DNA from: an uncultured Sphingomonas sp.
GTDB lineage: Bacteria; Pseudomonadota; Alphaproteobacteria; Sphingomonadales; Sphingomonadaceae
Direction: 5' to 3'
Assembly: GCA_946886845.1 (NCBI GenBank)
Contig: CAMPJH010000073.1
Coordinates: 1-7,432, forward strand
Length of the DNA stretch: 7,432 nucleotides
This document shows positions 2,794 to 6,085 of this stretch, in pieces (the first letter of the stretch is position 1; each line of letters starts with the position of its first letter). The notes below the pieces were generated by a model that searched no databases, was not told the origin of the DNA, and saw nothing but the letters and a program-made list of their open reading frames with translations. A program made the position numbers and the translations under genes.

Positions 2794-3402
2794 ATGTTCA
2801 CCGGGATCGTCACCGACGTCGGCACCGTCGCCAGCGCCGAGCAGCGCGCCGACCTGCGGCTGACTATCCGCTGCGGCTACGACATGGCGACGGTCGAGCT
2901 CGGCGCGTCGATTGCCTGTTCGGGCGTCTGCCTGACCGTGGTCGACAAGGGCGACGACTGGTTCGCGGTAGATGTCTCGACAGAAACGCAGTCGCGGACC
3001 GCGCCGGGCCTGTGGAGCGAGGGCGCAAGGCTCAATCTCGAGCGGCCGCTGCGGGTCGGCGACGAACTCGGCGGCCATTTCGTCACCGGCCATGTCGATT
3101 GCCTCGGTGACGTCATCGCCGTCTATCCCGAAGGCGGGTCAAGCCGAATCACCGTGTCTGTCCACGGCGCGCTGGCACCGATGATCGCGCCCAAGGGGTC
3201 AATCACGCTCGACGGCGTGTCGCTGACCGTTAACGACGTCCGCGATGCCGAGGACAGGACGACGCATTTCTCGGTCAACATCATCCCCCACACCGCCGGT
3301 TGCACGACCCTGGGCAACCTTGCCGCTGGAGGACAGCTCAATGTCGAGGTGGACGTGCTTGCGCGCTATATCGACCGGATGATTGCGGCGCGGTCACACT
3401 AG
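2794..3402 (+). CDS. ribE: Riboflavin synthase (alpha subunit)
   Basis: This enzyme dismutates two molecules of 6,7-dimethyl-8-ribityllumazine into riboflavin and the pyrimidine precursor, which is recycled. The 202-residue protein has the family's normal length and two lumazine-binding repeats, roughly residues 1-95 and 96-200. Each repeat keeps its signature: MFTGIV at the start with ACSGVCLTV (41-49), then GHFVTGHVD (94-102) with TLDGVSLTV (138-146) and IPHT (164-167). It starts at ATG 2794, nine bases after the ribD stop, with only a weak ribosome-binding site, which suggests coupling to ribD. The symbol follows the ribE usage for riboflavin synthase; E. coli literature also calls it ribC. 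It is followed by the palindrome-bearing gap before ribB. Confidence 0.95.
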   Translation: MFTGIVTDVGTVASAEQRADLRLTIRCGYDMATVELGASIACSGVCLTVVDKGDDWFAVDVSTETQSRTAPGLWSEGARLNLERPLRVGDELGGHFVTGHVDCLGDVIAVYPEGGSSRITVSVHGALAPMIAPKGSITLDGVSLTVNDVRDAEDRTTHFSVNIIPHTAGCTTLGNLAAGGQLNVEVDVLARYIDRMIAARSH

Positions 3403-3425
3403 GCACATCGCTGTTGCTGCTTTCA

Positions 3426-3443
3426 ATCACATTGCAATGTGAT
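3426..3443 (+). promoter_or_regulatory. 18-bp perfect palindrome, putative ribB operator
   Basis: ATCACATTGCAATGTGAT is identical to its own reverse complement. It sits in the 52-base gap between ribE and ribB, ending 11 bases before the ribB ATG. Weak promoter-like hexamers overlap it: TTGCTG at 3414-3419 and TGTGAT at 3438-3443, 18 bases apart. With no loop and no following T-run it is a poor terminator, and it is unlike a CRP site because the TGTGA and TCACA halves are in the opposite order. An operator for a dimeric regulator is the best reading. The gene it precedes begins with an HTH-like domain, making self-regulation the leading hypothesis. Palindrome: seen. Function: inference. Confidence 0.65.
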
Positions 3444-3454
3444 ATTGGGCGCCC

Positions 3455-4762
3455 ATGAGCACCACCTTGATCGAGCAGCTGACCGCCATCATCGACACCG
3501 GCGAGATCAGCCGCGCCGCCCTCGCCCGCGCCGCCGGGCTTCACCCCAACAGCCTTCGCAAGCTCGGCGCCGACGACTGGAACCCGACCGCCGATACGCT
3601 CAAGCGGCTCGAAAAGCTGATCCAGCGCGGCACCACCGACGTCCTGGTCGGCGCCGAAGCGATCATCGACGAGGCGCGCAACGGCCGGATGTTCATCCTG
3701 GTCGACGACGACGACCGCGAGAACGAAGGCGATTTGGTGATCCCGGCGCAGATGGCGACCCCGGACGCGATCAACTTCATGGCCCGCCACGGCCGCGGCC
3801 TGGTCTGCCTGGCGCTGACCAAGGAACGCGCCGACTCGCTCGGCCTCGAGCCGATGACCCGCACCAACCGCAGCCGCAACGAAACCGCCTTCACCGTCTC
3901 GATCGAGGCCAAGGAGGGGATTTCGACCGGGATCAGCGCCGCCGACCGGGCGCGGACGGTGGCGGTGGCGATCGATGCGTTGAACGGCCCCGACGCTTTG
4001 GTCTCGCCCGGCCATGTCTTCCCGCTGGTCGCCCGGCCGGGCGGAGTCCTGGTCCGCACCGGCCACACCGAGGCGGCGGTCGACGTCGCCCGGCTCGCCG
4101 GCCTCAACCCCAGCGCCGTGATCTGCGAGATCATGCGCGACGACGGGACCATGGCCCGGCTCGACGATTTGATGGATTTCGCCCGCGCCCACGGGCTCAA
4201 GATCGGCACGATCCGCGACCTTATCGCCTATCGGCTGAAGAAGGACCATCTCGTCGAGCGCACCGCCACCACCCTGTTCCGGGCGGTCAGCGGCGCCGAA
4301 TGGCAGGCGCAGGTGTTCCGCGACAAGGCCAGCGGCGAGGAGCAGCTGGCGCTGGTCCATGGCACCCTCAGCCCGGACGAGCCGGTGCTGGTGCGGATGC
4401 ACAGCCTCGACCTGTTCGCCGACGTGCTTGGCGAGGGGGGGGCCAAGTCCGGGCTTCTCCAGGGCGCGATGCGGATGATCGAGCGCTACGGGTCGGGGGT
4501 CGTCGTCGCGCTCCATGCCGCGGCTCCGGGATCGCTGTCGCGGTCGATCGACCTGCGCGCGGGCAATCCGGTCGACGGCGGCGACGCCGTCCGCAGCTAC
4601 GGCACCGGCGCGCAGATCCTCGCCGCGCTCGGCATCCACGACATGATCCTCTTGTCCAACACCCGCCATTCGCCGGTCGCTCTGTCGGGCTACGGGCTGA
4701 CGATCGTCGACGAGCGGCCGATCGAGGTCGAAGGCCCTTCGTCGGGCTCAGGACGGGCCTGA
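3455..4762 (+). CDS. ribB: HTH-DHBP synthase-degenerate RibA fusion (RibBX type)
   Basis: The central domain is 3,4-dihydroxy-2-butanone-4-phosphate synthase, which converts ribulose-5-phosphate to the four-carbon riboflavin precursor plus formate. It spans about residues 64-262 and keeps DRENEGD (87-93), [16 protein letters not shown] (157-166), PGHVFPL (185-191), RTGHTEA (201-207) and CEI (224-226), so it should be active. Residues 1-58 are extra: helices around [19 protein letters not shown] and [14 protein letters not shown] look like an XRE-type HTH. Residues about 266-424 resemble GTP cyclohydrolase II, but the three zinc cysteines align with D319, A330 and S332, and RQEGRG is replaced around 354-361. 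That matches the inactive RibX type of C-terminus known from proteobacterial RibBX proteins. No clear Shine-Dalgarno precedes the ATG. A palindrome lies just upstream, and ribH follows after four bases. Confidence 0.92.
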
Positions 4763-4766
4763 CGCC

Positions 4767-5189
4767 ATGGCCACCATCCTCCTCGCCGAAGCGCGCTTTT
4801 ATCCGCACCTCAACGACATGCTGCTCGACGGCGCCCGCGCGGCGATCGAAGCGGCCGGCCATAAACACGAGACTCTGACGGTGCCGGGGGCGCTCGAGCT
4901 GCCCGGAGCGATCGCCCTTGCCGCGCGCAGCGGCCGCTTCTGCGCCTTCGTCGCCTTGGGCGTGGTCATTCGCGGCGAAACCTATCATTTCGAGGTCGTC
5001 GCCGAGGAAAGCGCCCGAGCGCTGATGGACCTGACCACCCAGGGCTTCGCCATCGGCAACGGCATCCTCACGGTCGAGAATGAGGCGCAGGCGCTGGAGC
5101 GAGCCGACCCGGCCCAAGGCGACAAGGGCGGCGGCGCGGCCCGAGCGGCGCTGGCGCTGTACGAGCTGCGCGAAAAGTACGGCGCTTGA
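4767..5189 (+). CDS. ribH: 6,7-dimethyl-8-ribityllumazine synthase
   Basis: RibH condenses the four-carbon phosphate from RibB with the ribitylaminopyrimidine to make lumazine, the substrate of RibE; the family forms pentamers or icosahedral shells. The 140-residue protein is a compact but complete member. Visible motifs are the substrate-stacking aromatic in RFY (10-12), PGALELP (40-46), [14 protein letters not shown] (65-78) with the catalytic histidine H74, and [14 protein letters not shown] (97-110) followed by R112. It starts four bases after the ribB stop and its own stop overlaps the TTG start of the transporter gene, so the three are probably translated from one message. In many proteobacteria nusB follows ribH; here a transporter gene does. 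Confidence 0.95.
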
Positions 5190-6085
5190 CCGCAAGCGAG
5201 CGTTCGCCCCACCGGCTGGCCTTCCCGGCGCTGCTCCTGGGCAATTTCTCGCTGGCGATCGGACCCTGGTTCGTCCGGCTTGCCGACGTCGGGCCGGTGG
5301 CGGTTGGCTTCTGGCGGCTGTTGCTGGCCTTGCCGTTCATCTGGCTGGTCGCCCGGGTTGCTCGTCAGCCCCAGCGCATCCCGAAGCGATCGCTGCTGCT
5401 GGTGATCCTCGCCGCGGCGATCTTCTATGCGCTCGACCTAGCGGCGTGGAACGCCGGGATCCTGCTGACCAAGCTCGGCAACGCCACTTTGTTCGGCAAC
5501 AGCGGCAGCTTCGTCTTTGTCGTCTATGGCCTGTGGCTCGTCCGAAGCTTGCCGTCGCCCAGGCAATCCGCCGCCCTTGCTCTCGCGCTTGCCGGAACCG
5601 GCCTGCTGATGAGCAGCAGCTATGATCTGAGCCCGGCCAACTTCGCCGGCGACCTGCTGACCCTCATCGCCGGCTTTCTTTACGGCGGCTATCTGATCTT
5701 CATCGACCGGGCGCGAACCAGGCTTCAGCCGCTACCGCTGCTGCTGCTTGTCACCCTGCTCGGGACGCCGATGCTGCTGGCAATCAGCGTCGGGCTGGGC
5801 GAGCGATTGTGGCCCACCGATTGGACTCCGCTGATCATCTTCGCGCTGACCAGCCAGGTAATCGGCCAGGGCCTGCTGATCTATTCGATCGGCGTGTTCC
5901 CGCCGTTCGTCGTCGGCCTGGTCCTGCTGAGCCAGCCGGCAATCGCGGCGCTGATCGGCTGGTTCGCCTATGGGGAGGGACTTGCCGCGGCCGATTGGGT
6001 CGGAGCAGTGGCGGTTGGCCTCGCTTTGGTTCTCGTCCGCCTGCCGCAGCGGGGGTTGCGCGCTGGCGCGCCGCAGCCCAGTTGA
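5186..6085 (+). CDS. DMT/EamA transporter, possible RibN-type riboflavin carrier
   Basis: This 299-residue inner-membrane protein has about ten hydrophobic helices, at roughly 11-30, 38-58, 69-88, 96-118, 128-144, 152-172, 183-203, 213-233, 241-262 and 269-285. They fall into two EamA-type halves, and the second half keeps the characteristic [16 protein letters not shown] segment (249-264). The start is inferred as TTG at 5186, inside the ribH stop (TTGA). The first in-frame ATG is residue 142, which would delete half the protein. EamA proteins carry many small molecules and cannot be assigned by fold alone. RibN riboflavin importers of Rhizobium and other proteobacteria belong to this superfamily, and the overlap with ribH makes riboflavin or a precursor the best guess. 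Family call is firm; substrate is inference. Confidence 0.87.

Follow-up and report, generated by a model that had tools for sequence, protein, structure and literature searches.

A Cro/C1-type helix-turn-helix fused to RibBX, and a palindromic candidate operator in the promoter of its own gene, point to a probably autoregulatory riboflavin enzyme in Sphingomonadaceae

We propose, with a probability of roughly 0.7, that a riboflavin-pathway enzyme of the RibBX type, here named HTH-RibBX, would bind its own promoter through an additional N-terminal helix-turn-helix (HTH) domain and repress the ribBX-ribH genes, perhaps under the control of a ligand. A protein-based autoregulator acting at the palindrome upstream of the gene had already been suggested in the preliminary description of this DNA, and we now consider it probable given the co-occurrence and co-loss of the HTH domain and the operator in relatives. 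The window, that is, the whole stretch of 7,432 nucleotides that was analysed, contains in this order a partial gltX, an unassigned ORF, ribD (1807-2784), ribE (2794-3402), the HTH-RibBX gene (3455..4762, plus strand; 435 aa, assigned by Pfam domains and a PDB sequence match), ribH (4767..5189, plus strand), an EamA-family transporter, COQ9, and an ORF cut by the window end. The ribH gene begins 5 bases past the ribBX stop, and the two are probably co-transcribed; a ribH match also follows immediately 3' of ribBX in 68 of the 76 loci with enough flanking sequence. The nearest named relatives among the matches listed belong to Sphingomonas and Sphingomicrobium, and all genome-wide counts given here come from the genomes of relatives and not from the window's own.

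The enzyme part consists of an intact RibB (DHBP synthase) domain at residues 68-259 (3656..4231, plus strand; PF00926, E 3e-83), with its DRENEGD and GHTEA motifs present, followed by a GTP cyclohydrolase II-like X domain at residues 281-421 (4295..4717, plus strand; PF00925, E 1.8e-29) from which the zinc cysteines are absent. When the latter is compared with Mtb RibBA (4i14), the three cysteines of HSEC...RCDC, which we take to be zinc-binding, are substituted, and the residues of EGRGIGL, presumably the catalytic motif, differ too. The best PDB sequence match of the whole protein is 6mnz, titled RibBX of A. baumannii, and a second strong PF00925 match (188-218 bits) is found elsewhere in all 14 relatives searched, 8 of them with the HTH and 6 without it. 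Because the RibA-like part lacks the zinc cysteines and the relatives carry a separate strong PF00925 match, the protein is best named HTH-RibBX. The RibBX proteins of A. baumannii (6mnz), Shewanella, and Aeromonas likewise join RibB to a RibA-like domain without zinc-binding residues, and share with the window the gene order ribD-ribE-ribBX-ribH, an intact-looking RibA being present elsewhere in relatives (PMC10012899). For the solved relatives found by sequence, which include 6mnz and Mtb RibA2, the alignment begins only near residue 61, and they have no HTH in front. In the full-length AlphaFold model, the RibB core is poorly predicted (pLDDT below 50 at residues 115-178 and 183-202), and therefore we claim no geometry of the HTH relative to the enzyme dimer. 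Some genomes carry two or three RibBX-type copies, as in G640 (L295, L309, L322), G554 (L300, L301), and G068.

The stretch of about 60 extra residues before RibB had been read as an HTH of the XRE type, and this reading is supported: the DHBP_synthase domain starts only at residue 68, and residues 3-58 (3461..3628, plus strand) read as a Cro/C1-type HTH by Pfam, alignments, and AlphaFold2. A misread start codon does not explain the extra domain, since residues 1-75 are matched at E<=1e-3 by 3365 of the 3897 scored candidates. Two HTH families were tested, PF01381 and PF13443; the full protein matches HTH_26 with E 8e-4 (20.0 bits, under the curated cut-off of 22), while residues 1-72 alone match HTH_3 with E 1.2e-3 (19.3 bits, under the curated cut-off of 23). 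An HTH_3 match at E<=0.01 occurs in 10 of 29 relatives (best 3.6e-4), and two of the best 120 relatives listed (P0165 and P0187) bear a precomputed PF01381 annotation. AlphaFold2 predicts four helices in the N-terminal domain, at residues 3-15, 20-26, 33-36, and 46-58, with moderate confidence (pLDDT 75); no match from Foldseek reached E 0.001, and every VIA Z value was below 8. The PDB sequence search with residues 1-72 returned chance-level matches only (best E 0.16). In PHROGs the hits were weak; 7 of 10 belonged to transcription regulation, and the best one (E 0.012) was a transposition protein. Taken together, residues 1-60 look like a Cro/C1-type HTH that would bind DNA. The weak Pfam scores would also suit a domain that is now a structural remnant, with a separate regulator reading the palindrome, and TGTGA-type half-sites are indeed read by other regulators too; we hold this very improbable, given that two alignments, of 29 and 38 sequences, show no variation at eight HTH residues (A24, R25, G28, L29, H30, N32, L34, and R35), and given further points against a remnant that appear below.

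The candidate operator is a perfect 18-bp palindrome, ATCACATTGCAATGTGAT, at 3426..3443 (no strand assigned), within the 52-bp gap before the ATG at 3455, and its two strands read ATCACATTG/CAATGTGAT. With up to two mismatches allowed, the pattern TCACAT-N4-ATGTGA is present once in the window, with zero mismatches, against a mean of 0.07 in shuffled sequences (at least one in 13 of 200). We scored relatives by the count of the 12 fixed letters of this pattern found within 200 bp upstream, a measure by which 20 of 2000 letter shuffles reach 10 or more. Among 80 HTH loci from named Sphingomonadales and related records, the score was 12 in 42, 11 in 27, 10 in 10, and 9 in a single one, L070.

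The HTH domain and the operator travel together. Over two genome samples, every fetched ribBX copy with the HTH has the operator (10-12 of 12) upstream (85/85), and every fetched copy without the HTH lacks it, scoring at most 9 (105/105). The order sample comprised 147 genomes, with a RibB match in 142, and its copies were taken from among the matches listed: here, 57 of 57 HTH-bearing copies (30/30 plus 27/27) score 10-12 and 73 of 73 fetched HTH-less copies score 9 or less, giving a Fisher p of 5e-25 for 27 HTH-bearing versus 73 HTH-less copies, in a set from which 19 further listed HTH-less copies were absent, with one of them, G053:C6, added afterwards. In the family sample of 149 genomes, all 32 new HTH-less copies among the matches listed were fetched, but just 28 HTH-bearing ones; 28 of 28 of the latter score 10-12 and 32 of 32 of the former at most 8. 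In five genomes holding both kinds of copy, the operator stands solely at the HTH-bearing one, the scores with versus without HTH being 12 versus 7 in both G094 and G053, 11 versus 7 in both G567 and G599, and 11 versus 8 and 7 in G640. Such joint change of domain and site, even between two copies of one genome, also speaks against the remnant explanation.

One may ask whether the HTH and the palindrome were simply co-inherited without any functional link, given that the fusion is found almost solely in one family-level group and that the well-supported independent changes are few. On a tree of the RibBX core (151 rows, 50 of them HTH-less, omitting L255 and L256 for their long branches and L338 and L339 for being short), the HTH-less genes are not merely an outgroup, and the best tree requires 12 changes of the HTH and 13 of the operator. 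Its well-supported branches yield 4 independent pairs, in all 4 of which the operator changes with the HTH (sign test p 0.125), a number too small for significance alone. Against a pure lineage effect stand these repeated changes, the copies within one genome that differ in HTH and operator together, and the retention of the site in loci without an adjoining ribE match (19 of 77), and we therefore regard it as highly unlikely. Comparison supports well the domain anatomy, the operator, and, through co-occurrence and co-loss, the link between the two.

The candidate operator is also nearly confined to ribBX. Exact sites in 14 genomes with the HTH lie at ribBX in 9 of 10 cases, and those in 30 such genomes (two of them shared with the set of 14) in 17 of 19, while 20 HTH-less genomes contain zero, a further point against a separate regulator with a remnant HTH. 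With one mismatch allowed, 19 further sites appear in the 14 HTH-bearing genomes, 4 at ribBX and 15 elsewhere; the latter look like background, because 14 HTH-less genomes hold 11 such sites (the reversed pattern gives 3 and 1), and weak extra targets may exist. Scanning with a weight matrix yields 90 promoter sites over 80 loci, plus 6 sites elsewhere in 868 kb, of which 3 belong to the promoters of two loci with a late-starting match. Near the intact RibA, no strong operator was found in 14 genomes, 8 of them with the HTH (best 1.3 bits). The pattern resembles that of a regulator whose one main target is its own gene. No wider regulon emerged, and the extra exact site of genome G001, just 3' of an ORF that reads as enolase, is about what chance would give. 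A second exact match away from ribBX in an HTH-bearing genome lies at G114:C12:158004-158019.

The position of the palindrome suggests how it would act. A putative core promoter, TTTCAA - 16 bp - TATTGG (3421..3448, plus strand), with the operator in its spacer, was read by eye, aided by letter frequencies in 133 aligned promoters and by the preferred distance to the start codon; in 90 of 137 promoters, the distance from the first base of the site to the aligned start is 27 to 32 bases (mode 28, in 55). Conservation outside the palindrome is one-sided, with the letters T, T, G or T modestly conserved starting seven bases ahead of it and, again on one side, an A (72%) right after its outer T. 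From this eye-read promoter, transcription is predicted to start at about 3454-3455, which would leave the mRNA nearly leaderless. We infer repression because the operator apparently occupies the spacer between the -35 and -10 elements. The same HTH could instead bind the operator and activate, or could set expression by protein concentration without any metabolite signal, and we find this rather unlikely: the computed evidence fits repression and activation equally, and autoregulation through the protein level alone requires no ligand, but an operator that apparently lies in the spacer and touches the putative -10 sits in the position of a repressor, and activators usually bind further upstream. 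A further ATGTGA half-site, present at most 60 bp upstream in 63 of 133 promoters as against 3 of 129 for a control stretch, and usually 19-24 bases ahead of the palindrome, could serve activation or repression alike; it may allow cooperative binding, and the window promoter does not have it.

Under repression, the preferred reading, the events would run as follows. RibBX would have gained a phage Cro-like DNA-binding domain; RibB enzymes are homodimers, and in such a dimer the two recognition helices would contact TCACAT-N4-ATGTGA at a spacing of about one turn. The dimer would bind this operator, which apparently falls between the -35 and -10 elements of the gene's own promoter, and transcription of ribBX-ribH would be shut off once there is enough of the protein, or of the protein in the right ligand state. 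The candidate ligand of the RibB or X domain would be ribulose-5-phosphate, DHBP, a flavin, or GTP.

The predicted start practically at the ATG would leave almost no leader and no room for a riboswitch, and the window has no Rfam match at gathering score, RF00050 included. The preliminary description had the protein switch replacing the FMN riboswitch, a claim that stands only in part. In the order sample, RF00050 is found in 16 of 147 genomes, in none of the 57 with the HTH versus 16 of the other 90 (p 2.5e-4, uncorrected for kinship). In the family sample, it is found in 0 of 149 genomes, the HTH-less ones included, under strict filters by which weak matches can be lost. A riboswitch-for-HTH swap at each gene is accordingly rejected as stated: since the HTH-less family members are also without the riboswitch, its absence is a lineage trait and not a gene-by-gene exchange.

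Regarding the origin of the domain, profile searches found small stand-alone HTH relatives, up to 48% identical to the window domain, in two bacterial genomes (L262 and L263, the ones examined of 14 non-full-length matches among 18) and in phage contigs. By hhalign, the HTH alignment matches L262 with a probability of 98.5 (E 2e-15). The ORF facing L262 head to head has an HTH_26 match (25.0 bits, above the cut-off) and the one facing L263 is Peptidase_S24-like (21.6 bits, below the cut-off of 23.3), while L343, L344, L346, L347, and L348 face ORFs that are repressor-like by reading alone. A TCRCAT-N4-ATGYGA-like palindrome (at least 10 of 12) lies within 100 bp upstream in 9 of 13 stand-alone relatives, no score being reached in more than 1.7% of shuffles, and is missing from L263, L349, L354, and L355. 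Under the strict RibB pattern, 5 of 13 score 10 or more. The start of L347, L349, L354, and L355 was set at the first matched base instead of a start codon. Upstream of L346 stand TCCCATCTTGATGTGA and, closer to the start, TCACATTCAGATGTGT. These similar sites are one more argument against the remnant explanation. The phage contigs L344 and L353 each encode a small Cro-like HTH protein with an apparent row of operator-like palindromes or half-sites upstream, resembling an OR region. The IMG/VR contigs do hold stand-alone relatives, and the window HTH alone as a query gave zero matches there; INPHARED tblastn gave zero matches to the HTH or L262, and within the order of L262 only L262 itself was found (1 of 43 genomes). 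As the stand-alone relatives, mostly on phage contigs, have similar palindromes, the domain probably derives from a phage Cro-type regulator whose DNA preference it kept, which in turn supports the view that the HTH itself reads the operator. That an ancestor of the Sphingomonadaceae took up both the phage Cro domain and its operator, yielding a self-contained, near-single-target switch on an almost leaderless mRNA, gated by a ligand of the RibB domain or of the degenerate RibA one, is a broader proposal whose chances we judge to be evenly balanced. If it were true, the X domain would be sensory, and the switch would provide the principal flavin feedback of a family in which FMN riboswitches are missing.

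Several known systems resemble this arrangement. RbkR is an archaeal HTH-riboflavin kinase that controls pathway genes; like HTH-RibBX, it fuses a DNA-binding domain to an enzyme of the flavin pathway, although the enzyme is a different one and the system in the window apparently has one main target site. The analogy drawn earlier with RbkR is therefore fair in the sense of working alike, but does not extend to family membership, as a Pfam search of the window protein at E<=1 gave HTH, DHBP_synthase, and GTP_cyclohydro2 only, with no riboflavin kinase domain. BirA, PutA, and other enzyme-repressors (“trigger enzymes”) also carry a DNA-binding domain on a metabolic enzyme, and the BirA domain occurs in only a subset of lineages (PMC5343134). 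They differ from HTH-RibBX in the enzyme, and here the DNA binding and the ligand control are proposed. Phage Cro/CI-type repressors such as P22 c2 share the predicted fold and the WNPT motif, and L343, L344, L346, L347, L348, and L353 (IMG/VR) show identically laid-out palindromes no more than 100 bp from the start; unlike HTH-RibBX, these repressors and the stand-alone relatives are small, several face a repressor-like ORF, and they are unfused to any enzyme. No paper on an HTH-RibB fusion was found in the literature searched, whose coverage excluded most subscription papers.

Where FMN riboswitches are not found, the question arises of what controls riboflavin synthesis, and in the present case the enzyme is its own probable regulator. 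Our proposal would also give the puzzling X domain of RibBX a possible role, and a phage Cro-type domain, perhaps along with its operator, would have been reused for metabolic control. Given a defined operator and one main target, the idea is testable with one protein and a 50-bp DNA.

Some neighbouring features of the window deserve mention. In ORF 746-1810, a proline-rich N-terminal part precedes a C-terminal part that looks unrelated and contains a hydrophobic helix; an NCBIfam search gave zero matches, and perhaps two genes were joined here by a frame error. At the ribE stop, 5' of the operator, the loci L004, L005, L015, L021, L031, and L033 of close relatives contain AGGAACA-N4-TGTTCCT followed by a T-rich stretch, perhaps the ribDE terminator, whose window counterpart (3400-3420) is decayed. 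Lastly, the EamA-family transporter ORF (5186-6085) overlaps the end of ribH, and such a gene follows ribH in 34 of 74 loci; in NCBIfam it has a weak general match alone. RibN flavin importers are members of the EamA superfamily, and this ORF could be a flavin transporter under the ribBX operator.
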